From a virus: a stretch of 25,123 nt of DNA. The translations under genes and the position numbers were made by a program. The stretch is taken from positions 78,504 through 103,626 of the IMG/VR virus record IMGVR_UViG_3300031952_000007. One strand, given 5' to 3'. This document shows, in pieces, positions 1-24,050 of the stretch; position 1 is the stretch's first letter, and every line of letters starts with the position of its first letter. The notes beneath the pieces are model-generated. The model searched no databases. It was not told the origin of the DNA and saw only the letters and a list, made by a program, of their open reading frames with translations.

Positions 1-3000
1 AATGAATATAAATCTAATTTAATTCAGAAATGGAAAGATTCTCACAATGGGGAAGATCCAATTGGAAAAGATCTTGATAAAATAAATAGAGATACAGAAT
101 CAGTAGGTAAAGCATCATTCTTTGGAAACTTAGCTCTTCTTGGTATTACAGAATACGTACAATTGCCAAAACTTTTAGGATCAAATTATTCAGCTAGTAA
201 ACAAGCTGCAAATAGTCTTTTAGGAAAAGCTGATGATGTTCTATTAAAGGATGGTAAATATATTGCTAAAGAAGCTACAACTAGATTTGGTAAAGTATAT
301 GATAGGGCAAAAGGTATTGGTAAATATGCATTTAATCCAATGGAAGCTCTTCAAGAAGGTTTACAAACTACATTACAAGTTGGGGTGCAAAACTATTATA
401 ATAAAGCATACCAAACAGGAGATGCAGATGCATGGACTGATGGATTTTTACATGGGTTATATGGAGAAGATGAATCAGGAAAAGGTGTTGGTGTATTAAA
501 TTCTAAAGAAGGTGCTGAAAGTATTTTACTTGGTGGTATCACTGGAGGATTAATGTCAGCTAAAGGTAATTATCAAGAAGCAAAAGCTACTAAGAGTAAT
601 ACAAAACTTTTCTTAAATCAACTTAATGGTGCACCATCATTTAAACAAGCTTTCCAAGAAAGACTTGGTGCTGCAAATAGAAATATTGTTTTACAACAAC
701 AGCAGCAAGATGCTGTAATTCAAGGAGATAAATTAGAAGCAAAAGATCTTGATGCTGATATGATTTATAACTATCTAGCTCCTCGTATCAAATATGGTAG
801 ATTTGATATGGTGATGGAAGATATTAATGAATTAAAAAATGGAGGAATGACAGAACAAGGGCTTGCTGAATTAAAAGCACAAGGTCTTGCTAATGTTAAT
901 GACACTGTACAATCATATCAAGAAAGACTTATACAATTTGAGAATACAGCAAAAGATATTAGTCAATTATATAAATCTAACAATTTACGTTTCTCTGGAG
1001 AGATCCTTAGAGATGAACAAGGAGAACCTGTATTAGATGAGAAAGGTAACACCCAACGTAAATACTCTGCAGAAGTAATTGATAAAATGATTTATGCAGC
1101 AAGTAAAGTTGCTGATTATGATCGTCGTATTCCACAATTATCAGGTAACCTTTTAGCTAAAGGAATTGATGTACAAAGCGTTATTGATAGTGAATTAACT
1201 GATACAGCATCTACAGCACTTGGAGAACAACTGCAAGTGATTGATAATATGGATGATATCAATAAGGATGAGTTAAAACAAGAGCTAACTGATAGTGTTG
1301 AATTATCATTAAGAAGAAGACAATTCTTAAATGAATATTCTGATTTAAAAGGTAACCCTAAAAAATATACAACTTTTGATGATGGTGGTACAAAAGTAAA
1401 TGGTGATGGTAAGAAGTTTAGAACCACTCCTTCTGAACAACCAGAGAAAGGAAGTCCTAATTATTCTGCACAAAGTAGAATGCCATTCAAAGGAGATAAG
1501 AGAACATATGATGATCTTGTATCACAATATGGTGAGGGAGTACAAAATAAATATGATGTACTTCAAAAGATTATGAATTCTCCATATGCTACAACATTAG
1601 AGAAAGAACTAGCTGCTAAATTTTTAACATTTACAAACAGAGATGCTAAGATAGTTTTAGGGGATAGATCACTTCCAAACCCTGGAATTTCTACAACAGA
1701 TCTATCATCTCCTAATGCATCTGTTTCTCATATCAATTATGAATACAATGCTGATGATTATGAAGGGACAACACTTCCTTTAGAATATGTATTGTTACAT
1801 GAGATTGGACATGACCTTACAGTTTATGGACTTTCAGATAAATCAGATCCATTCTATAAAGAACTACAACCCTTGTTTGAATTTGTAAAAGATTATTTCA
1901 AAAATGATCCTAGCAAATATGATCCTAAAGGATTGTTAAAAGAAGGTGCAGAACACTATGCATTCAAGAACATTAAAGAATTTGCTACAGAGGCTTTATC
2001 AAATAGAGATTTCCAAAGGTATTTAAAAACTATTCCTTACAAGGGAACACAAAAAAGTGCATGGGATTCATTTGTAAGTAATTTAAAAACATTCTTTGGT
2101 AGGTTATTTGGTATTACACAAGACAGTGCATTAGAAGAAGCTGTTGCTATTATAACAAATAACGTAGATAGAATCTACAAGAATGAGGCTGCAGAAAATA
2201 AGAAGATAGATCAACAAGAAAGAGAAGCTAAAATTGCTGAAGAGAAACTTAGAAAGCTTGCTGAAGATTTAGAAAAACAACAAGCACAAATTGAAGGTAA
2301 CTCTGGTGATGTTGGTACAGGAGATAATCTTGTAGATGAGGCAGCTCTTCCTAAAGAAGATAAGAAGAAGGCAACAGATGAAATGTTCATTGCTGGTAAA
2401 ACAGAATCTGAAGATTGGAATGACCCTACTAAATCAGAACCACACGTCAAACGTTCTAGAGTATTTTTAAATAAAGTTAAAGAGTTTGCTAATAGAAAAA
2501 ATCTAAGAGCAATTCTTGTAACTCCTAATAATGAAAAAGCATTAGGACTTGATGGTCTTACAAAACTATCATATGGTAAAAATGATATGTCTGGAGCAAC
2601 AGATGTAAATAGAGGATTTGTTGCACAGGTATTTGTAGAATATGTAAATGGTAAGAGTTATTTTGTAAATGAAAAAGGTGAGCAGTTAGGAGAAGTTGGA
2701 ACACAAATTGATATTGATCAAGTGATCTTCCAAACAATGCCTACAACAGATATCACTGGTAAAGATCAAGATAAAAAAACTTATAATTTATTCAGAGCTG
2801 GTGAAGAATCTCAAGCAAAGTTAAAAGCTGCTGCTTGGTTAAAGTTTAGAGAAAAACTATTTGAAAATAAAGGAGCAACATTTACAGCCTATCCATTTAT
2901 TGTATCAAGAGGACTAGCTATTGAAAATCCTAAGATTAATGGTAAAAGTGAAACCAATCAAGTAGCAGGAGTATTAATTGATGCTAAGAATGAGGGTAGA

Positions 3001-6000
3001 ATCTTACGTACAAACCAAAACTTAATTCAAATCTCCACCACTGGAACTATAGAACACCAAGGAAAATTATTAAATGTTCCTAAGGGTAGACCTATGTTAC
3101 AGAACGGTGATACATTCCAATACATAAACAATAGAACTTTTACAAAGAAAGAAGCTCAAGCAATTTATGAAGTAATTAAAAGACTTGCAAAAACTGTTCA
3201 AGATACAGGAAAGATTGATACAACATATGCTGCGTTCTTACAAAATGTTTTATTCTATAGAGGTGGTAAGAGTGTTACAGGTAATCAAATAAGTGTAAGC
3301 ACAAAAGCAATGTCAATAATGCTGGGAGACAAATACTATCCTATCATTGATATTGAAAATCAAGAAGCTGCTATACTAGAACAACTATCAAAAACCTATC
3401 ATAATGTTAATAAGAAAACTATTGACACTAAACTTAATGAGAAGTTTTTAGAATTTTATATAAATGATAAAGGCGAGTTTACAGAAAATGAATGGGACAA
3501 TTACCAATCATATCTTCTTTCTTCCACCTATCCTAATGGTAGTAAGCGTTCTGCTGAGAACACTCCATTAACCACATCTGCTGCAGCTCCTACAACTGCA
3601 CTACCTTATTCATTTAAGCAGAAGTATGCTACACTACAAAATTTAGAATTAGCTGTACAATCGGTTCCTGTGGCCCCTGTAGCAGCTCCTGTAGCTCCTA
3701 CAGCACCAACTGTTCCAACTATTGGTGGATTTGTTGTTGATGGTAAAACAGAAAACACATTTAATTTTGAAAAACCTGCAGCTGACCCTATTGGTAATAT
3801 CCAATTTACAGCATCTGTAGATAAAGATGGTAATGTTGTTGCAGAAGCTATCAGTGGTGATAGAACCAAAGAGATTGCTAAAGATGCTGCAAGAATTCAA
3901 TTGTATGTAGATGCTCTAACAAATGCTGGACAATACGAGCAAGGAATGACAGCTGAAGAAACATTTTTAAAGTTCCTTTCATTAAATCTTTCTGCACGTT
4001 TACAAGAAACTAAAAAGAATGAAGTAGCTGTTCCAGTTCCTGTAACTCAAGAACCTGAAGCTCCCACTCCTACACAAGAAGCTCCTACAGGACCTGTAAA
4101 TCTATCTGGAATTTCAGAACCAAGTGATGATGGTAGAAGAGTGGCTAAGGGTGAGAAAGAAGGAATGACAGATGCTGAACTTCAATTATTTAAAAAATGG
4201 CATGCTGAGAATGCTTCTAACATTCCTTATGAAGTATTGGAACAACTTGTTACAATGCATGATGGAGAAAAAGCATGGGGTGTATTTGAAGATGGTGTAG
4301 CTAAGTTTGTAAGAGGTGGATTGAGAGGTACGGAATATCATGAGATATTTCATGCTATCTATCAAGGATTTCTTTCTAAAGAAGAAATAGCAGCTCTTGA
4401 AGATGAGTTTAAAGCTAAGTCTGGAACATTTACAGATAGAGCTTCTGGTAGAAAGATTGAATATGCTAAAGCTACAGCTAAACAAATTGAAGAAAGAATT
4501 GCTGATGATTTCTCTGACTTCAGACTTGGTAAACTTCCAGCTAGATCATTGGGTGAGAAGATTGCAAGATTCTTTAAGAACATTGTAAACTTTGTTAAAA
4601 GCTTTATAGGAAAGCCTTCATTAAAGGATGAGTTATTTAAAGCTATTGATGCTGGTAAATATAAGAATGCTGTCCTATCTACATCTATTAAAAGTCAAGC
4701 TCCTGCGTACAGAGCAGTTGAAGGATTATCAGAACAAGAAACTCATGACTTTATTCAAGACATGACAGCTAGGGCTGGTGTTATTATATTTAAAGAAAAT
4801 GATATCTCAGCTATATACAACACTGAGAAGTTCATGAAAGGTAATGTCTTTGGTAAGATTAAAGAAATGTATACTGGAGAAGGTAGAATGAATGCATTGG
4901 GTGAGAAGAGATGGGAAGAGTTAGTTAGTAGAACTAAAGATTCTCTACGTACACTAGGTATTACATTTGCTGAAGGTGACAAGGCTGCACTGAATGATAT
5001 TGAAACAAACAAGAATGATTATGCAGCTGATGCATTTTCTGTAGATTGGAAAAAGTCTGCATCATTTGCTATGAAGTTTTCTATGGCTACACTTCCTGCA
5101 ACAGAAGCTACCAATCAAGAGAATGAAGAAGAACTAACTGCTCCAAAAAGAAAGCTTAGTGATAGTGGTGTTAATGGCGTTACATTGTTAGGATATAGTA
5201 GAGCATTTGGAACATTAATTGATAAGCTTGCAAATACAACAAAAGTTAGTAAGGCTATTGAGAAATTAATTAAGCTTGCTGAAACAGATAGTAACTATGT
5301 AAGAATGTTCCAACGTTTGGGTGGAGATTTTACATCAAAGAAAATTAAAAAGACAATCAACTTTTCTAATTTCAAAAGAGACAATTGGAGATTCTTTATT
5401 GAGTTTATGCAAACCACCACTAAGCAAAAGCCTGATGTACATGTTCAATATGTATCAGGAAATGAAGTGTTCATGGGTTCAGCTAATATAAATAAACTTA
5501 CAGATAATATTAAGAAGGATTGGATTGAGAATATTAAACAACTATCTAAAGTTAAAGATAGTCTCATCTCATTTGATTATATTAAAGGTGTATATAAAGT
5601 TGGTAAGCTTGGTGAAATATCTGTAAAGACTCCACAAGAGCAAGTTGATTTCTTAAATAAATTAGGAATTAAATTTACAATGGATTCTTACAACAGATTA
5701 AAAACTGAAGGAGCAGTTAACCAACAGAAAGAGTTTGGTAATGCTGTAAGTGCTATTCGTGAGTTCCTTCCTAAGGTTGGAGCAATCATGACATTTAGAA
5801 ATAAAGTTTTAAACATAAGTGGACAACTTGATACAATAGCTCGTTTGTTTGTTGCTACAGAAAATCCTATACAAGATTCTACCTATCGTAACATTGAAGA
5901 CAAACAAGTTAATGCTTATACAGAAAACAATGTACCATCATTGTTTGAGAATGAGTTTAACGAGGCTAAGACAATAGAAGAACTTCGTGTAGAAAGACCA

Positions 6001-9000
6001 GAACTTAATGATTTATTTTCTAAGCATAGTATTGTTCTTTCAAAAGGAGGAATGTTTTATGATAAGGAAGGTAATAAATTTAGAGATTTTAAAGTGGGTG
6101 CTATACAAGGAACTCGTATAGAAGATACTGATAAGGCAACTGTTACTAGTAGGTTAACTAAGGGTGATAGATTTACACAAGAGATTAATGAAAACCTTAC
6201 AGGTAATTATTACATATTGATTCCAGCAGATAGTTCTACAGAATGGATGATGAATATTGGTAATAATATTCAATTCAAAGATGTAGAGAGTGGAAGAGCT
6301 TGGAAGAAAATTAGCACTATATTCAAAGGATATTTATTTGATGATGTTGCTTTAGCATTAGATGGAGCTAATAGAACAAAGTTGAAAAGCATCAGCAATG
6401 AAAAATCTAAAGAACTTCGTTTCTTTAAAGATATTCTTTCTGAAAAGACCCTATCTGCAATTAACGAAATGATTGCTAACGGTACTTCTCAAGAAACAAT
6501 TGAGAAATACATAAATGAAAACATTGCTGATATAGATGCTTCTGTTAAAGAATTTATAGATGGTATTGTTGCTGAGACTAGAAAGATATTAGTTGATAAC
6601 AAACAAATTGTTTTAAATAAGAAAGAAGGATTCTCCTATCCTAGACTACTTGATACATTTGCAAAAGATGTAGAAGTAAATCTAGATAAGAATAAAATGT
6701 CTGATGCAGATGTAAATAATCTATTGACATTTGCTAGAGTGAATTATGTTATTGCTAATATAGAATACCATAAAATTCTATTTGGTGATCCTTATCAATT
6801 TAAAGTTGGTAAAGATGGTTCATTGGATGAAACTAAACGTGTTAAATCATTTCTTTCTGGTAGAAGAACTACATTTGATAGTCCTGAATATAATGATTTC
6901 TTAAACGAAGATTATAATAAAGTTAGTGCTGAAGATGATGCTATTGTTTTAGAACCCACTGATCCTGGTTATCATACACATAAGGCTTATGTAAACACTT
7001 TAACTTCAAGTGATGTAAATGTTCAAGGGAAGCTATTAGGGAAGACTAATGAGGCTGATGCTGCTTCATGGATCATGGATGGTACATATAGAGAGGTGTT
7101 ACTTAAAAATCACCAATGGAGTAATGATGCTGAAGCTTGGCATCAATATCAAATGTCTTACATGAGACAAACTCTTTCTAAGAAGGGAGGATATAAATAT
7201 ACCAATCCTAAATTAGAAGCACACGATAGGGAAACTCTTTCTAAGAAAGAACCTAAGTATGTATTGAATATATTGAAACCAATTGCCACTGGTAATAAAT
7301 ATGGTAAGAACAACTTTGATCAAGTGTTAGATAAGTTTTCTCAAATGCCTGTATACTATAGCATGGTGGAAGGAACAAATCTTGAAGCTCTTTATTTGAA
7401 AATGATAAAGGAAGGATTTGGATATGCTATTATGGAGAGTGGTAGAAAAGAAGGTGCTGAAGAATTACATTCTTTATATAACAAAAATGGTTCATTCAAC
7501 CAAGATGCTTTTAATAATAAAGTTCAAGTTCCTTGGAAAGCATATGGTATTCAGGTTGAAACTGCATATGAAGAAGGTAAAGAACAAACAAGGGGTTCTC
7601 AGGTCACTAAGGTGGGTAGTATGGATCTTTTTGATAATGGTGTAGCTAGTCCTGAAGCAGAAGAAGAGTACACTCGTAACACTGAGCTATTGGATAAATT
7701 ACATGCCAATGGTTATAAAACATTATTGAAGAGATTAGGAGTTGAAGATCTTGGAAATGCATTTAATATAGTTGACAGAGCTGCACTTGCCAAGACTTTA
7801 AAAACTGAAATGTTCAGAAGAGAACTTTCTGATAACATTAAAGATAGTATTCAGCTTGATGAGAATGGAGAATTTATTGTTCCATTTGAAGCATCCCCTG
7901 CTTACATACAGATAAAGAATATTCTATATTCAATAGTAGATAAATCTATTAGTTCTCCTCAAATGAGTGGTGGTGGTTATGTACAAGCTCCTGTAACAAT
8001 GTGGGAGAATGCAAAAGAAGGTAGGAAGATAGCTATTAAAACTGCAGAAGGATATAAAGAAATATCTAAAGCAGAGTTTGAAAATCTTACTGAAGAAGAA
8101 AAAGCAAAGGTTGTATTAACAGATGACACTCTTAAGTTCTACACTAAAGAAGAACCTTGGTGTGAAATCATGTTACCTCATTGGTTTAAAGATAAGATTA
8201 ATAAGAACAGATTTAAAACTGATGCAGAACTTATCAAATGGTTAAACAGTAGTGAGGAAGGTAAAAAGATTTTATCTGGAATTGGTTTCCGTATTCCTAC
8301 ACAGTCTCTTTCTTCTGCAGAAGTGTTCAAGGTGAAAGGATTTCTTCCTCAGGCTATGGGTAAAACTGTTATTGTTCCTTCTGAAATTACTAGTAAGGCT
8401 GGATCGGATTTTGATATTGATAAATTGAATCTCTACCTTAAATCAATATATATTGATAAGAATGGTGATATTCGTTTAGTTAATTATAAAGGATCAGAAG
8501 AATCTACAAGAGAGTTCTACAGTAGAGTATTTGATGAGAAGTTAGAAAAGAAAAAGATCACTAAAGCTGAAATGTTAGAAGCTGCACAGATTTTATCTTT
8601 TGATTTAGAAGATCCTAATAACTTAGTTGACAGATATTCTTGGTTATTAGATACTTTTGATACAGATAATATAGATGAGAATGTAAATACAATAATGGAA
8701 GAATTAGAGCAACTTGGTGATGTTAATTATCAAGCAGCTCTAAAAGAAAAGTTTGTAGATGATATGTACAGACGTTCATTAGAGAATGAATATTACGATT
8801 CTTTAAGCAAACTTATTTCTCTTCCTGAAAACTTTGAAAGACTTATTTCTCCAGTGGATGATGCAGGATTGAAAGGTCTTTCTGATAAATTAGATGAGTT
8901 GACAGGTAATGATGAGAGTCTTATTAAGAATAGGATTCTTAATCCAAACTACATGACTTCTCTTAGACATGCATTTGTAACTGCTAAGAAGTGGGTGGGT

Positions 9001-11424
9001 ATTGCTGCTGTAAATATTACAACACATTCCCTTTTTCAAAAATCACAAATGCACATTGATACAGATAAAATTTCTTCTCTTACAAAAGTTGATAAAGATA
9101 TGTTAGGAGATGGTAAAATTTTACTTGATCATAACAAAATAACAATAAAGGGTAAGATTTATGCTTCTCTATCTGGAAAGCTAGATGCTGCAGGTAAATA
9201 TATTTCAGATAAATTATCTGGATATGCTACAGCATTTGTGGATGTTGCAAAAGATCCATACATCCTTAAAATTATTAAGAGTGATCTTGCTGTAGGTACA
9301 TTTATGTTCTTAGAAAGAGTTGGCGTTCCAATTGAGCAAACAGCAATGTTTATGAATCAACCTATCATTAGTGAGTATTTATCTCTTCTTGATAGTAATA
9401 ACATGACAACTTTATTTGATTCAAGGAATTTTGCTGAAGTTTATAATAAGTTTCCAACAACTGCTCCTGCAATTAAGAAGGCTTCTTTTAGCACAGCTAA
9501 CTTTGAAAAGAACATTAAAGATTATAGCTTTGCTAAAAAGTTAAACAAAAAGAATGATAATGTTGATAGGAATGCTGAACAACAACTTATTCTAAAAGAG
9601 TTCTTGAAGTATGCTAAGATGGCTGAGTTTGCATTCAAACTTACTCAAGCTGTAAATTATGATACTACTAATTTTAGAAGTGGTGATTCATTGTTCTTAA
9701 AACAAACTAGAACAGGAATTGCAAGAGAGTCGAACATATTCTCTTCTGTAGATGATGTTCTTGACACAACATTTATAGGTGAACAAGCTAGACTCTTAGA
9801 CAGAGGAATGGAGGGAATGGGTGAAGTGTTGAAACTTGAACAAGCTGAGTTCACTGACATTACTAATGATGTACTTCTTCCATATGCAAGAAATCAATTC
9901 TTCAGTAAGGATAAGTTTGATAAGGTTGCATCAAAACTAAAAGCTTCTTTCTTAGATTTTATTATTCAAACTAATTCTAATATAGCTAGTAAAATTAATA
10001 CATTACTATTAGATGGAGAAACTTCTGTAGCTAGTCAGTTGGTTGAAGCTAAATCAAAATATCCTCAACTTAAAATTTTACAATACCTTGAGGTAGCTAG
10101 TTCAGATAGAATTGGTGGTGCTCAAAGTGTTAAGTTAACAGTAAATACATCTCTTGCGTATGATGAAAATTTATATACAGGAATGATGAGAGAGCTTAGA
10201 GACTTTAATGCTAAAGATACTAATGAGCTTTATCAAGCATTGGTTAATGTGGCTGTATTACAAGGAACTTACAAATCAGCTATATCAATTAAGAATGTAA
10301 TTCCTGTTGAAGATTATAGCAAAGCAATTACACCAATTATTAAATCTGTAGTTGCCACTGATGACATGAGAGAATTTGCTAAACAAAACTTATTTCAAAA
10401 GAATAACTTTAAAGACACAGATGCTGTTCCTTCATACACACCAAAATTTCAAGTAACAGGAGAGCCTATGATTGTGGAAACACTTGATGACTCTTATGAA
10501 ATGTATAAGTATGTAAATACAAATCAATTTCCTTCATTACCATCACTTAATATAGATTCTTCAGATAGAAGAATATTAAAATTAAATGGAACCTACCAAG
10601 CTAAGTATGTTCAGTTTGATGTAATTACAGTTCCTAGATTATTAACTATGGAAGATGGTGATAGAGTAGATTTCTTTACAGGATTAAGCGTTCAAGATTC
10701 TGTTATTTCTGCTAGAAGAAAAGCTGGTGATCTTTCTTTACAAGATGTTATAGGATACCAAAAGGTTAAATATACTGATGGTACACCTCTTACAGATATT
10801 GATACAGATGGAAACACTATACATATCTATAGAATGGTTAACTTATATGGAGATGCACAATTTGCTACAGAATATAGAACAGATGGTCGTCCTTCTGTAT
10901 TTAACAATGGTTCATTACCTGTTGACACTGAAATGCTAGACAATGCAATTATACAAGCATTTGGTGGTGAACTAGTTGAGCCTGCAATTCAAACAGAAGT
11001 TGCTCCTGTAGAAACTCCTGAACAAACATCTAATAATATTAAAGAAACTACAGAAGTTACACAAGCTACAGAAACTACTGAAACAACTAAACCAGAAATA
11101 AGTAATACTATTGATGAAAGTTCTGAAGATAGAAAAATTAATGTAAATCAATTTAATATCACTGTGAAGCCTGATGGTAAAATGTTTTATGATAATGGTA
11201 AAGAAGTTACAGATCAAACTATTAAAAACAAAGTGAGCATTAGAAAAGAACTTCAAGATGGAACATTAAGAACTTCTGTATACAATGGTTCAAATTATTT
11301 CGTACTTTTGAATGGTAAAGTGTTAGGAAGTGGAAAAACTAATCTTGGAAAAGAATCCGTTACAGATTCTAAAATTTTAGAATCTATATTATCTAAAGCT
11401 GTAATTTATAAAAAAACTTGTTAG
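1..11424 (+). CDS. Giant virion protein: zincin domains plus single-chain RNA polymerase (5' end outside window)
   Basis: The frame is open from base 1, so the TTG at 163 is not a true start; at least 3807 residues are visible (numbered here from base 1). Visible parts in order: a helical region (about 1-560); a zincin with HEIGH at 600-604 and a possible third ligand in EFATE (660-664); a charged coil (about 730-770); Pro/Ala-rich linkers at about 1221-1240 and 1341-1366; a second zincin with HEIFH at 1447-1451 and EERIADDF near 1497; then an RNA polymerase region (about 1570-3620). The polymerase signature is RIPTQ at 2764-2768 followed by DFDID at 2803-2807, matching the R-x-P...DFDGD arrangement of cellular beta-prime subunits and the DFDID loop of crAss-like virion polymerases such as phi14:2 gp66. 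The three aspartates should hold the catalytic magnesium. A Thr/Glu-rich linker (about 3660-3700) leads to a small C-terminal domain. Domain edges are estimates. Polymerase call strong; proteolytic activity of the zincins is inferred. Confidence 0.88.
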   Translation, partial: NEYKSNLIQKWKDSHNGEDPIGKDLDKINRDTESVGKASFFGNLALLGITEYVQLPKLLGSNYSASKQAANSLLGKADDVLLKDGKYIAKEATTRFGKVYDRAKGIGKYAFNPMEALQEGLQTTLQVGVQNYYNKAYQTGDADAWTDGFLHGLYGEDESGKGVGVLNSKEGAESILLGGITGGLMSAKGNYQEAKATKSNTKLFLNQLNGAPSFKQAFQERLGAANRNIVLQQQQQDAVIQGDKLEAKDLDADMIYNYLAPRIKYGRFDMVMEDINELKNGGMTEQGLAELKAQGLANVNDTVQSYQERLIQFENTAKDISQLYKSNNLRFSGEILRDEQGEPVLDEKGNTQRKYSAEVIDKMIYAASKVADYDRRIPQLSGNLLAKGIDVQSVIDSELTDTASTALGEQLQVIDNMDDINKDELKQELTDSVELSLRRRQFLNEYSDLKGNPKKYTTFDDGGTKVNGDGKKFRTTPSEQPEKGSPNYSAQSRMPFKGDKRTYDDLVSQYGEGVQNKYDVLQKIMNSPYATTLEKELAAKFLTFTNRDAKIVLGDRSLPNPGISTTDLSSPNASVSHINYEYNADDYEGTTLPLEYVLLHEIGHDLTVYGLSDKSDPFYKELQPLFEFVKDYFKNDPSKYDPKGLLKEGAEHYAFKNIKEFATEALSNRDFQRYLKTIPYKGTQKSAWDSFVSNLKTFFGRLFGITQDSALEEAVAIITNNVDRIYKNEAAENKKIDQQEREAKIAEEKLRKLAEDLEKQQAQIEGNSGDVGTGDNLVDEAALPKEDKKKATDEMFIAGKTESEDWNDPTKSEPHVKRSRVFLNKVKEFANRKNLRAILVTPNNEKALGLDGLTKLSYGKNDMSGATDVNRGFVAQVFVEYVNGKSYFVNEKGEQLGEVGTQIDIDQVIFQTMPTTDITGKDQDKKTYNLFRAGEESQAKLKAAAWLKFREKLFENKGATFTAYPFIVSRGLAIENPKINGKSETNQVAGVLIDAKNEGRILRTNQNLIQISTTGTIEHQGKLLNVPKGRPMLQNGDTFQYINNRTFTKKEAQAIYEVIKRLAKTVQDTGKIDTTYAAFLQNVLFYRGGKSVTGNQISVSTKAMSIMLGDKYYPIIDIENQEAAILEQLSKTYHNVNKKTIDTKLNEKFLEFYINDKGEFTENEWDNYQSYLLSSTYPNGSKRSAENTPLTTSAAAPTTALPYSFKQKYATLQNLELAVQSVPVAPVAAPVAPTAPTVPTIGGFVVDGKTENTFNFEKPAADPIGNIQFTASVDKDGNVVAEAISGDRTKEIAKDAARIQLYVDALTNAGQYEQGMTAEETFLKFLSLNLSARLQETKKNEVAVPVPVTQEPEAPTPTQEAPTGPVNLSGISEPSDDGRRVAKGEKEGMTDAELQLFKKWHAENASNIPYEVLEQLVTMHDGEKAWGVFEDGVAKFVRGGLRGTEYHEIFHAIYQGFLSKEEIAALEDEFKAKSGTFTDRASGRKIEYAKATAKQIEERIADDFSDFRLGKLPARSLGEKIARFFKNIVNFVKSFIGKPSLKDELFKAIDAGKYKNAVLSTSIKSQAPAYRAVEGLSEQETHDFIQDMTARAGVIIFKENDISAIYNTEKFMKGNVFGKIKEMYTGEGRMNALGEKRWEELVSRTKDSLRTLGITFAEGDKAALNDIETNKNDYAADAFSVDWKKSASFAMKFSMATLPATEATNQENEEELTAPKRKLSDSGVNGVTLLGYSRAFGTLIDKLANTTKVSKAIEKLIKLAETDSNYVRMFQRLGGDFTSKKIKKTINFSNFKRDNWRFFIEFMQTTTKQKPDVHVQYVSGNEVFMGSANINKLTDNIKKDWIENIKQLSKVKDSLISFDYIKGVYKVGKLGEISVKTPQEQVDFLNKLGIKFTMDSYNRLKTEGAVNQQKEFGNAVSAIREFLPKVGAIMTFRNKVLNISGQLDTIARLFVATENPIQDSTYRNIEDKQVNAYTENNVPSLFENEFNEAKTIEELRVERPELNDLFSKHSIVLSKGGMFYDKEGNKFRDFKVGAIQGTRIEDTDKATVTSRLTKGDRFTQEINENLTGNYYILIPADSSTEWMMNIGNNIQFKDVESGRAWKKISTIFKGYLFDDVALALDGANRTKLKSISNEKSKELRFFKDILSEKTLSAINEMIANGTSQETIEKYINENIADIDASVKEFIDGIVAETRKILVDNKQIVLNKKEGFSYPRLLDTFAKDVEVNLDKNKMSDADVNNLLTFARVNYVIANIEYHKILFGDPYQFKVGKDGSLDETKRVKSFLSGRRTTFDSPEYNDFLNEDYNKVSAEDDAIVLEPTDPGYHTHKAYVNTLTSSDVNVQGKLLGKTNEADAASWIMDGTYREVLLKNHQWSNDAEAWHQYQMSYMRQTLSKKGGYKYTNPKLEAHDRETLSKKEPKYVLNILKPIATGNKYGKNNFDQVLDKFSQMPVYYSMVEGTNLEALYLKMIKEGFGYAIMESGRKEGAEELHSLYNKNGSFNQDAFNNKVQVPWKAYGIQVETAYEEGKEQTRGSQVTKVGSMDLFDNGVASPEAEEEYTRNTELLDKLHANGYKTLLKRLGVEDLGNAFNIVDRAALAKTLKTEMFRRELSDNIKDSIQLDENGEFIVPFEASPAYIQIKNILYSIVDKSISSPQMSGGGYVQAPVTMWENAKEGRKIAIKTAEGYKEISKAEFENLTEEEKAKVVLTDDTLKFYTKEEPWCEIMLPHWFKDKINKNRFKTDAELIKWLNSSEEGKKILSGIGFRIPTQSLSSAEVFKVKGFLPQAMGKTVIVPSEITSKAGSDFDIDKLNLYLKSIYIDKNGDIRLVNYKGSEESTREFYSRVFDEKLEKKKITKAEMLEAAQILSFDLEDPNNLVDRYSWLLDTFDTDNIDENVNTIMEELEQLGDVNYQAALKEKFVDDMYRRSLENEYYDSLSKLISLPENFERLISPVDDAGLKGLSDKLDELTGNDESLIKNRILNPNYMTSLRHAFVTAKKWVGIAAVNITTHSLFQKSQMHIDTDKISSLTKVDKDMLGDGKILLDHNKITIKGKIYASLSGKLDAAGKYISDKLSGYATAFVDVAKDPYILKIIKSDLAVGTFMFLERVGVPIEQTAMFMNQPIISEYLSLLDSNNMTTLFDSRNFAEVYNKFPTTAPAIKKASFSTANFEKNIKDYSFAKKLNKKNDNVDRNAEQQLILKEFLKYAKMAEFAFKLTQAVNYDTTNFRSGDSLFLKQTRTGIARESNIFSSVDDVLDTTFIGEQARLLDRGMEGMGEVLKLEQAEFTDITNDVLLPYARNQFFSKDKFDKVASKLKASFLDFIIQTNSNIASKINTLLLDGETSVASQLVEAKSKYPQLKILQYLEVASSDRIGGAQSVKLTVNTSLAYDENLYTGMMRELRDFNAKDTNELYQALVNVAVLQGTYKSAISIKNVIPVEDYSKAITPIIKSVVATDDMREFAKQNLFQKNNFKDTDAVPSYTPKFQVTGEPMIVETLDDSYEMYKYVNTNQFPSLPSLNIDSSDRRILKLNGTYQAKYVQFDVITVPRLLTMEDGDRVDFFTGLSVQDSVISARRKAGDLSLQDVIGYQKVKYTDGTPLTDIDTDGNTIHIYRMVNLYGDAQFATEYRTDGRPSVFNNGSLPVDTEMLDNAIIQAFGGELVEPAIQTEVAPVETPEQTSNNIKETTEVTQATETTETTKPEISNTIDESSEDRKINVNQFNITVKPDGKMFYDNGKEVTDQTIKNKVSIRKELQDGTLRTSVYNGSNYFVLLNGKVLGSGKTNLGKESVTDSKILESILSKAVIYKKTC

Positions 11425-16432: not shown

Positions 16433-18301
16433 ATGAGAACAGCTGCTATTTGCCCTACATGCGCAACATATGAAAATGCTTTATGTATCATTTATAATGG
16501 TGCCTACCTATCTAATATAGATGCAGTGCCATTAGATTCTATCGAAGCTATTTTAGTAAAGACTAATGCTAGAGTTCAAATTCTAGCCAATAAATCTATT
16601 GATGGAACTTTTGCTGCTAACAGCGATACACTCTATCCATCTCAGAAAGCAGTTAAAACTTACGTAACTTCTGTAGCTGCTACATTACAACCATTATTAG
16701 GTTTCACTCCAGAGAATGTAGCTAATAAATCTACAGACGTAACCTTTGCTGCTAATTCTAACACTCTCTATCCCACACAAGCAGCTGTTAAAGCATACAT
16801 TACAGCAAATAGTTCTGCTAAAATATCTCCATATATCAATAATGATATTCTCACTGTTACTTCAGGAAATCCTGTAGATAGTGGTAAGTCATTTTCTGTA
16901 GATGGAAATTTTGCTTCAAACAGTGATGTATTAATTCCTACACAAAAAGCTACAAAAACATATGTAGATGCATCTGTTTCAGGACTTTTAGATGATAGAG
17001 GTAATTATACACCTAGTGTAAGTAACCCTGGAACATGGCCTTCAACAGGTGGTTCTGGTATAGGTGGTGCTATTAGAAAAGGTGATCTTTGGTATATAGC
17101 AGCTGATGGTTATTTAGGAACAACAGCTGTAGTTACAGGATCTAACTTTAGAGCTATTGTAGACACTCCTGGACAAACTGCTGGTAATTGGAATATTCTA
17201 AATGCAGGAGTAGGATATATTCCTGAAAATCAAAATAATAAATCTACAGATGGCACAATGGCTGCAAATTCTGTAGTGTTATACCCTTCTCAATCAGCTG
17301 TAGTAACGTATGTTTCTTCATTCACTTCTGGCGCATATCTTCTTTTAACAGGAGGTACGTTAACAGGAAGTTTAACAGGAAAAAGTGCAGTATTTATTGA
17401 TAGTAATTCAAATGAGTTGGTTTATTTTCAAAATACAAGCACTGATAATGCAAGTTTTGGTTTTGTTGTAGCTGCAGATGCTGGTATAGGTGCTTCAATA
17501 TCTAGTACTACTAATACTGCTTTGGTAGCAAATAGTACATCAGGTAATAATGCTAGTTTTGGTCTTGGTAAAGTGGTAATTGATAATGCAGGACAAATTA
17601 TATTAGGTAATCCTGACGATGATAATGGTGTTAGAATTTATGATAATGGTCTTGTTGCTGTTAGAGGTAATTTTTACAGTACTTTATATCATCCAAATGA
17701 TACAGCTCTTATGGCATATGCTGAAGATGGTTGGTCTGTAAGATTTGGAAGTGGTGGAATAGGATTATCCATCCCATCTAGTAATAATGTTTTAATTGGA
17801 ACTTTAACTGATGATGGAACCAATAAACTACAAGTTACAGGAAATACTAAAATAACAGGAACATTAACTTCAACAGGCACTATAACAGGAACAACTGGTG
17901 CAGTAATTAGTGGATCTGCAGGATTTACAGTTACTCCTAGTGGTCGTACATTAATAGGTACAGCTAGTGATGATGGGATTAATAAATTACAAGTTACTGG
18001 ATCAGGAGAATTAACTGGTAATTTACAAGCAAATAAAATTTCTACAATAAATGATTTTACTCATCCTACGGGATGGATATCAGCAGAAGCACTATATGCA
18101 AATAGTGAAATTTTTGTTGATGGTGATGGTCAATTTAATGGAGATGTTACTGCTGCATCATTTACTCTTGAGACATTAAACACAGCACCTTCAAGTAGTT
18201 TTGACACAGGAACTCTTGGAGAAATTAGAATCACAGCTGGGTATATTTATGTATGTATTGCAACTAATACGTGGGTAAGAGCACAATTATTAACTTTCTA
18301 A
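16433..18301 (+). CDS. Tail fibre / appendage protein 1 with KTYV-type repeats
   Basis: This 622-residue protein is low in charge and rich in Gly, Ser, Thr and Asn, as in phage fibres. Residues 1-48 form an N-terminal domain shared with the second fibre gene (C10, C18, YxGA, DxI, KxNA). Four copies of a repeat of the type NKSTDGTFAANSDxLYPSQKAVKTYV lie at about 53-80, 98-125, 155-182 and 269-296; two are preceded by a PEN motif. Two copies of LIGTxxDDGxNKLQVTG follow at nt 17792-17842 and 17951-18001. The C-terminus, with GEIRITAGYIYVC and TNTWVRAQL, is of a kind often seen at the end of phage appendage proteins. It probably binds the cell surface or joins the tail to a receptor-binding tip. 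No enzyme motif is visible. Its start lies directly downstream of a promoter-like site. Confidence 0.82.
   Translation: MRTAAICPTCATYENALCIIYNGAYLSNIDAVPLDSIEAILVKTNARVQILANKSIDGTFAANSDTLYPSQKAVKTYVTSVAATLQPLLGFTPENVANKSTDVTFAANSNTLYPTQAAVKAYITANSSAKISPYINNDILTVTSGNPVDSGKSFSVDGNFASNSDVLIPTQKATKTYVDASVSGLLDDRGNYTPSVSNPGTWPSTGGSGIGGAIRKGDLWYIAADGYLGTTAVVTGSNFRAIVDTPGQTAGNWNILNAGVGYIPENQNNKSTDGTMAANSVVLYPSQSAVVTYVSSFTSGAYLLLTGGTLTGSLTGKSAVFIDSNSNELVYFQNTSTDNASFGFVVAADAGIGASISSTTNTALVANSTSGNNASFGLGKVVIDNAGQIILGNPDDDNGVRIYDNGLVAVRGNFYSTLYHPNDTALMAYAEDGWSVRFGSGGIGLSIPSSNNVLIGTLTDDGTNKLQVTGNTKITGTLTSTGTITGTTGAVISGSAGFTVTPSGRTLIGTASDDGINKLQVTGSGELTGNLQANKISTINDFTHPTGWISAEALYANSEIFVDGDGQFNGDVTAASFTLETLNTAPSSSFDTGTLGEIRITAGYIYVCIATNTWVRAQLLTF
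16589..17320 (+). repeat. Four imperfect 28-residue repeats in fibre 1
   Basis: The coding repeats lie at 16589-16672, 16724-16807, 16895-16978 and 17237-17320. Each encodes a version of a segment ending in (P)S/TQxAxKTYV. Copies 1 and 2 are 51 bases apart, while copy 4 is separated by a longer insert containing a Gly/Trp-rich region. A fifth related copy occurs in the third fibre gene at about 24103-24174. Confidence 0.85.
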
Positions 18302-22799: not shown

Positions 22800-24050
22800 A
22801 TGGCACAAAATTATTCAGGATATAGTATAATAAGTCCAGCTATTTCATATGCAAACTCTCCAAATATAGATGCATTTGGTAGACTTAGGGTTAGTAATCC
22901 ATTTACATTATTTGACTCTAGTCATAGATATGCAGATAATGGGTTGTGGTCTACATCTACTGCTACAAGTGGAGCAGCTGTATTTAATGCAGATCAAGGT
23001 CTTGTTGATTTAAATGTTACAGCAGCAAGTGGTTCTCAAGTTCTTAGAGAAACCGTAAAAGTATTTTCTTATCAACCTGGAAAAAGTTTACTTGTATTAT
23101 CAACATTTACAATGTCTCCTGCTAAAACAAATCTTAGACAAAGAATTGGATATTATGGAGCAGCTAATGGTTATTATTTAGAACAAAATAATAGTACAGT
23201 TAGTTTTGTTGAAAGAACTTCAATTTCAGGTTCATTAGTAAATACACCTGTTGCTCAATCAAGTTGGAATGTTGATCCTATGAATGGAACAGGTCCTAGT
23301 GGAATAACACTTGATTTAACAAAAGCTCAAATTTTATTTATGGATCTTGAGTGGTTAGGAGTAGGTACAGTTAGAATGGGGTTTGTTATAGATGGTAATT
23401 TTTATGTTTGTCATAAATTTCATCATGCTAATATAATTGCATCTACATATATTACTACTGCTTCTTTACCATTAAGATATGAAATAACAAATACAGGTGC
23501 TACAAGTGGGGTAAGTACATTAAAACAAATATGCTCCACTGTATTATCTGAAGGAGGATATCAACTTAATGGTTCTCAATTTGCAATTAATACTCCTATT
23601 GGAACTTCATACACTCTTACAACTAAAGAATTATATTACCCAGTATTAGCAATAAGATTAAAGAATACAAAATTAGATAGTGTTACAATACTATCTGCAT
23701 TAACATTATTAGCAGATACAACTGGTGAAAAATATAATTGGCAATTAAGAACAGGTGAAACCAATTTAGTTGGTGGAGGTACATGGCTTACTGCAGGATC
23801 AGATTCTACTGTAGATTATAATATTACAGGTACTAGTGTATCTGGGGGAAGAATAATATCAAGCGGGTTTTTTAGTTCAACAACAAATACTGGAAGTTCT
23901 GTATCTTTATTTAAAGATTCAATGTTTAGATTTCAATTAGAAAGAAATACGTTTACAGGTATTCCATTCGAAATGATTTTGTCGGTAACGGCATCACAAA
24001 ATAATAGTAAAGTATTTGCTTCCTTAGATTGGGAAGAAGTAACAAGATAA
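22800..24050 (+). CDS. Phage structural protein with DAFGRLRVSNP motif
   Basis: This 416-residue protein carries DAFGRLRVSNPFTLFDSSHRY at about 25-45, a hallmark I know from virion structural proteins of many tailed phages. The rest is beta-rich with lectin-like character: LFMDLEWLGVGTVRMGFVI near 180-198, then HKFHHAN, and many Thr/Ser/Gly strands. The end (KVFASLDWEEV) is compact. In such proteins the N-terminal motif probably marks a domain that attaches to the virion and the remainder binds partner proteins or cell-surface sugars, but this is inference. It belongs to the same run of appendage genes as its neighbours. Confidence 0.75.
   Translation: MAQNYSGYSIISPAISYANSPNIDAFGRLRVSNPFTLFDSSHRYADNGLWSTSTATSGAAVFNADQGLVDLNVTAASGSQVLRETVKVFSYQPGKSLLVLSTFTMSPAKTNLRQRIGYYGAANGYYLEQNNSTVSFVERTSISGSLVNTPVAQSSWNVDPMNGTGPSGITLDLTKAQILFMDLEWLGVGTVRMGFVIDGNFYVCHKFHHANIIASTYITTASLPLRYEITNTGATSGVSTLKQICSTVLSEGGYQLNGSQFAINTPIGTSYTLTTKELYYPVLAIRLKNTKLDSVTILSALTLLADTTGEKYNWQLRTGETNLVGGGTWLTAGSDSTVDYNITGTSVSGGRIISSGFFSSTTNTGSSVSLFKDSMFRFQLERNTFTGIPFEMILSVTASQNNSKVFASLDWEEVTR

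Follow-up and report, generated by a model that had tools for sequence, protein, structure and literature searches.

Among the closest described relatives of the protein studied here are proteins of two crAss-like phages, namely the virion RNA polymerases phi14:2 gp66, whose structure has been solved (PDB 6VR4), and crAss001 gp50, together with crAss001 gp47, a virion cargo protein annotated as an RNA-polymerase subunit. All three of gp47, gp49 and gp50 are packaged in crAss001 virions (PMC10172136). Zincin metalloprotease domains are known from other injected phage proteins: those fused to N4-like polymerases and those found in polyvalent proteins were described in 2017, when processing was also proposed (PMC5512222). 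The virion RNA polymerase of N4-like phages (Schitoviridae) is a giant ejected protein with a zincin (PMC5512222; PMC12633501), and polyvalent proteins are giant injected multidomain chains with one to five zincin-like MPTase domains each (PMC5512222). The survey of polyvalent proteins does not mention crAss-like phages (PMC5512222), and the text of the 2021 crAss survey makes no mention of zincins. We found no description of zincins in crAss-like polymerases in the literature searched, though the report of the gp66 structure or the 2018 paper on the crAss family may contain one.

The window analyzed here (the whole 25,123-nucleotide stretch, positions 78,504 to 103,626 of IMG/VR record IMGVR_UViG_3300031952_000007) is the last quarter of a 103.6-kb record (103,626 bases). 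The source virus is a member of the Crassvirales, because its terminase (TerL), portal and major head protein match PHROG 6681, 6547 and 11589, and its portal is 26-27% identical to those of the gut crAss-like phages cr10_1 and cr50_1. Positions 1-11424 form a single open frame of 3807 amino acids, which according to the original prediction belonged to a gene beginning before the window; indeed, the same frame runs 318 codons (954 nt) upstream to an ATG at genome position 77550, followed by PDFDKDLN, to give a full fused chain of 4125 aa. An assembly artefact as the source of this giant frame was ruled out because the frame is unbroken in many relatives (3.9-5.1 kaa). The cargo region has one hydrophobic segment ahead of the window, at full-chain residues 114-133. 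Scanning the entire chain against Pfam and PHROG returned no credible match; no LPD-type or other curated domain rose above Pfam cut-offs (E up to 1), and no Pfam match to a T7-like single-subunit polymerase domain was found, the polymerase being of the DxDxD type. The features of the locus are collected in Table 1, where residues, as in the text, are counted within the window unless given as full-chain.

Table 1. Features of the fused gene and its downstream neighbour, in window coordinates
Feature	Position	Strand	Basis or detail
Fused gp47-type cargo protein and virion RNA polymerase gene, 3' 92%	1..11424	+	Open frame, chain-profile mapping
N-terminal cargo region, matching the N-terminal half of crAss001 gp47	1..1390	+	
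Zincin 1 core, residues 525-719	1573..2157	+	HExxH 600-604 (1798-1812), Glu 660
Zincin 1 third-ligand Glu 660 in KEFATEALSN	1975-2004	+	
Pro/Ala-rich linker, residues 1222-1240	3664..3720	+	
Pro/Thr-rich linker directly ahead of zincin 2, residues 1344-1362	4030..4086	+	
Zincin 2, residues about 1364-1580	4090..4740	+	HExxH 1447-1451 (4339-4353)
Coupled Glu 1497, invariant Glu 1498 and Asp 1502 in EERIADDF	4489-4512	+	
Stretch with direct homology to phi14:2 gp66, residues about 2174-3173	6520..9519	+	Sequence matches, chain profile
Catalytic GSDFDIDK (DxDxD) motif, residues 2801-2808	8401..8424	+	
Thr/Glu-rich linker ahead of a small variable C-terminal piece	11008..11106	+	
Next gene, 1640 aa	11426..16348	+	Position of RNA polymerase-associated protein, phi14:2 gp65 / crAss001 gp49

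Judged by homology, the C-terminal half of the chain is a crAss-like virion RNA polymerase of the phi14:2 gp66 type, in agreement with the single-chain polymerase that had been predicted, and DFDID lies at residue 2803, around which double-psi beta-barrels had been expected. The window protein matches gp66 in tblastn (5e-25) and, as a single-sequence phmmer query, the solved structure 6VR4 (5.4e-23 over about 900 residues); a profile match is partly circular, because gp66 sits in the alignment behind the profile. The homology to 6VR4 spans the catalytic-barrel region, that to gp66 and gp50 covers about 1000 residues with the shared DFDID motif, and the whole polymerase half spans roughly residues 1590-3640. 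In a whole-chain profile, crAss001 gp47 maps onto full-chain residues 87-1877, and crAss001 gp50 and phi14:2 gp66 onto about 2490-3530; because these homologues map to successive parts of the chain, the profile shows the predicted giant protein to be a gp47-gp50 fusion. The extra N-terminal modules of the original prediction are thus attached ahead of the polymerase as proposed, but on the chain profile the full-chain N-terminal ~1880 residues are of gp47 type, a gene fused in rather than a set of novel add-ons. Whereas gp66 and gp50 are separate proteins in which no zincin was detected, the window chain has a two-zincin gp47-type protein fused in front. For its part, crAss001 gp47 aligns with the window chain over its N-terminal half and zincin 2, but is encoded by its own gene on the opposite strand from gp50 and lacks zincin 1. 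Among 80 loci fetched by polymerase sequence alone, zincin 2 and DxDxD lie in one ORF, 1380-1580 residues apart, in 74, and fusion is the rule in the window's part of the tree.

Downstream of the fused gene, the 1640-aa protein showed no detectable sequence match to phi14:2 gp65 or crAss001 gp49. Further along the window, a 416-aa protein (22800-24050) matches PHROG 1645 'virion structural protein' at E 2.6e-132, far more strongly than the other genes scanned in this divergent genome matched, and a 622-aa protein (16433-18301) gives repeated short matches to a tail-fibre PHROG.

Two HExxH motifs with plausible third ligands had been predicted, at residues 600 and 1447; both were recovered at exactly these positions, with Glu 660 and Glu 1498, respectively, invariant in relatives. 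Used as a lone sequence, zincin 1 found nothing in a close-relative search, and an alignment query yielded 13 loci. H600, E601, H604 and E660 are invariant in the zincin 1 alignment, which comprises phi14:2 gp65, Flavobacterium phage Fpv20, cr116_1, a T7-like Limnohabitans phage and Rudgehvirus jaberico, and HExxH is present in every zincin 1 copy detected. The domain fits the pattern of the ejection-protein and N4-vRNAP family (HExxH with a downstream Glu in NxxEFxxxxLTNxxFQ), and hhalign against the zincin of N4-like virion polymerases gave E 1.1e-13 with crAss-like and Fpv20 members only and E 2.6e-15 with all members, pairing HExxH with HExxH and EF with E[FL]. Six of eight zincin 1 members were matched by PHROG 2206 'virion RNA polymerase'. 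A zincin 1 profile built without T7-like members reached the solved 'Internal virion protein' 9SFN (E 2.3e-4) and the solved ejection protein 8VB2 (E 0.034), both matches improving when the T7-like member was included. Zincin 1 matched PDB entries 11FW/11GO (virion DNA-directed RNA polymerase), which from their names and lengths we take to be N4 vRNAP, at E 0.11-0.13 only. The AlphaFold model of zincin 1 was moderate (pLDDT 65); in a viral fold library it matched phi14:2 gp65 and phage internal core proteins (E 3e-5 to 1e-4), and against the PDB it gave weak fold matches, many of them zincins. Profile homology shows zincin 1 to be of one family with the zincins found in N4-like virion polymerases and in ejection proteins of phages.

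Unlike the window chain, the N4-like virion polymerase has a T7-like fold, carries its zincin after the polymerase and has no zincin 2. MPTase domains of polyvalent proteins share with the window chain the combination of an HExxH plus Glu zincin and a giant injected multidomain protein (PMC5512222), but they are joined to other effector domains (LPD, ART, SNF2 and others), and the window chain holds no LPD-type Pfam domain. The R. jaberico protein that already bears the annotation 'ZnMc_tr' matches the zincin 1 profile and likewise places a zincin in the crAss transcription block, adjoining the catalytic subunit, but its gene is separate from the catalytic polymerase. Both cr50_1 KNV26_gp059 (4774 aa) and the cr116_1 chain (2510 aa, zincin 1) combine a zincin and RNAP in one chain, in genomes that are already public, though just one of the two zincins was detected in each.

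The place of zincin 1 varies among relatives. Loci L068 and L270, like the window clade, have it ahead of zincin 2; Fpv20, L280 and L282 have it at the C-terminal end of their polymerase chain; and in phi14:2, L144 and L196 it is part of an adjoining protein. The idea that two zincins in one chain are unique to the window phage was rejected, as L068, L270, L280 and L282 also have both; two zincins and a polymerase share one chain in at least three other lineages. The special system originally envisaged therefore holds as to its parts, two HExxH domains and a crAss-like polymerase in one chain, with its novelty weakened by these lineages and by the N4-like vRNAPs. In 17 loci the zincin 2 protein and the polymerase are separate genes, and zincin 2 retains an intact HExxH in every one. 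In four loci (L245, L249, L253 and L285) the fused polymerase chain is complete, at 3.7-4.2 kaa, but has no HExxH; these chains are either zincin-free or carry zincins too diverged to detect. Loci L124 and L150 have the chain broken into two ORFs downstream of zincin 2, 400-630 residues before DxDxD, at a break point that differs from that of crAss001 and may reflect an intron, a frameshift or a true split. Fpv20 (L024, Fipvunavirus), which is not assigned to the Crassvirales in its record, encodes a structural protein of 4419 aa that has a crAss-like polymerase match (E 1e-20) and ends C-terminally with zincin 1. Public records annotate the giant polymerase chain as 'DNA helicase' or 'DprA-like DNA recombination-mediator protein' (cr50_1, L025; NC_055892, cr109_1; NC_055896, cr113_1).

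Zincin 2 lies at the gp47/RNAP junction, and its residues H1447, E1448, H1451, E1498 and D1502 fit a gluzincin HExxH with an ExxxD/E third-ligand helix. In an RNAP-anchored set of 73 rows, all different, the downstream Glu occurs in every row, and 72 rows have both the first His and the motif Glu, the remaining one being truncated. The AlphaFold model was poor (pLDDT 52 from 12 sequences), its fold search uninformatively returned unrelated chains, and a deep zincin 2 profile found no credible family in Pfam, PHROGs or the PDB; hhalign against zincin 1 gave 44% probability, with both motifs aligned. The motif and this weak profile match suggest the fold of what appears to be a gluzincin-like site, which lies between cargo and polymerase and is conserved in much of the order. 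Bacterial genomes yielded four relatives of zincin 2, and the one read with its full chain is phage-like. In Chitinophaga sp. YR573 (NZ_FOJF01000001.1, about 3.695-3.767 Mb; L290, L294), a crAss-like terminase, a portal and a 4468-aa fused polymerase chain with zincin 2 as HEAFE lie within a bacterial contig of 4.8 Mb, close to a gene for a tyrosine recombinase; the region is likely a crAss-like prophage in a sequenced bacterium.

The window phage has the canonical HExxH, yet in its wider clade zincin 2 alternates between HExxH with Glu and HExxE with Lys/Arg, both residues changing together. The second His position holds His in 19 and Glu in 53 of the 72 RNAP-anchored rows scored; the residue preceding the downstream Glu is Lys/Arg in all 53 HExxE rows and in 2 of the 19 HExxH rows, and this neighbouring column ranks first of all other columns in mutual information with the ligand column. 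Such family-wide counts derive from metagenomic contigs, some of them near-duplicates. Alignment error was rejected as a source of HExxE, which is ungapped and recurs over many rows. On an RNAP tree of 120 rows, about half of them fetched with patterns favouring HExxH or EE, each trait changes 18 times, and all nine independent pairs on well-supported branches are concordant (p 0.004). A tree of zincin 2 itself, built without the two columns, gives 17 and 16 changes with six of six pairs concordant (p 0.03), and the coupling can therefore be explained without the swapping of domains among phages. With RNAP-anchored rows only, there are 8 changes and four of four supported pairs agree (p 0.125); all of these trees come from quick searches, and many of their forks are weak. 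The independent-pair tests on the RNAP and zincin 2 trees reject common ancestry alone as the source of the coupling. In another RNAP-anchored set, drawn from the crAss001 side of the order, 49 of 49 zincin 2 copies have HExxH, 17 of them encoded apart from the polymerase; HExxE is therefore restricted to one large clade, where it is probably derived.

Replacing His by Glu requires two base changes in the codon, and neither Gln nor Asp was seen as an intermediate at the second-His position. We tentatively propose, as a possibility we hold at somewhat less than an even chance, that the active site of zincin 2 works in two forms, one pairing HExxH with a second-shell Glu and the other HExxE with a second-shell Lys/Arg, and that lineages have moved repeatedly from one to the other by paired substitutions, avoiding intermediates. 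The HExxE form need not be dead, since the CLCA proteins, zinc-dependent metalloproteases with HEXXE, are described as self-cleaving (PMC6851300).

On balance, and with modest confidence, we favour an explanation in which the fusion of gp47 and gp50/gp66 would be ejected as the early polymerase, with zincin 1 as a protease acting in trans, zincin 2 as the site of the coupled switch, and no obligatory release. By analogy with crAss001 and phi14:2, the capsid would hold the chain until it is ejected at infection, after which it would transcribe early genes. Zincin 1 would most likely be a working protease that cleaves envelope, host or co-ejected proteins in trans, either during entry or just afterwards, and both zincins would probably serve the ejected cargo complex rather than being an obligatory device for freeing the polymerase. 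The zincin 2 HExxH kept in the 17 loci with the polymerase on a different gene speaks for trans action, as does the packaging of gp47, gp49 and gp50 in crAss001 virions (PMC10172136). Trans action is favoured because the predictions of a release model fail, as set out below, and because N4 vRNAP, with its related zincin, is reported unprocessed. Against the favoured explanation, some fused chains have no HExxH, and thus neither zincin is essential to the class; the fixed junction position of zincin 2 also suits cleavage in cis.

An alternative that we consider unlikely is that the zincin folds are structural modules that scaffold packing and ejection and are not proteolytic, the HExxE form of zincin 2 being a pseudoenzyme in which a Glu-Lys salt bridge replaces the metal. 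It would account for the predominance of Glu at the second-His position and for the Lys/Arg beside the third-ligand Glu in every such row, and in N4 the C-terminal domain, of which the HExxH-bearing C1 is a part, packs against the polymerase (PMC12633501). However, the first His, the general-base Glu and the third-ligand Glu are invariant in HExxE forms, unlike in decaying pseudoenzymes, HExxE zincins can be active, as in CLCA (PMC6851300), and zincin 1 was never seen degenerate.

We consider it quite improbable that zincin 2, zincin 1 or both cut the chain itself, after entry or in the capsid, parting the ejection half from the polymerase half. Zincin 2 does lie precisely where cargo and polymerase meet, a boundary that in crAss001 and phi14:2 falls between separate genes, and Pro-rich linkers flank it; P1 DdrB, which carries such a domain, is processed (PMC5512222), and CLCA zincins self-cleave even with HExxE (PMC6851300). 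Yet release, which had been suggested as the role of the proteases, predicts that zincin 2 should decay where the polymerase is separate, and it is intact in all 17 split loci; it also predicts a protease in all fused chains, and several complete ones have no HExxH. In addition, N4 vRNAP is reported to be packaged without processing (PMC5512222) and to be a giant protein when ejected (PMC12633501). The release idea is weakened accordingly. That the HExxH at 1447 is a chance motif and no zincin is very improbable, because, despite its lack of a usable structure or a Pfam or PDB profile match, HE..[HE] and the Glu with ExxxD/E spacing are conserved order-wide, the ligand changes together with a residue 46 positions later, and hhalign pairs both motifs with those of zincin 1.

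Three observations are apparently new, in that they were not found in the literature searched: the coupled switch between HExxH and HExxE, the chains with two zincins, and the zincin 1 link across both polymerase types. If the two-form proposal is true, zincin 2 would represent a natural series for the swap of a metal ligand in a metalloprotease injected together with a viral polymerase, and the coupled switch offers a concrete, cheap handle on whether zincin 2 is an enzyme and on the evolutionary exchange of zinc ligands. The crAss-type and the N4-type polymerases, both injected by phages but unrelated to each other, carry one zincin family, which points to a shared, so far unexplained need during entry. 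crAss-like phages are an abundant group, and if active, these zincins would count among the earliest-acting proteins in the cells that such phages infect.
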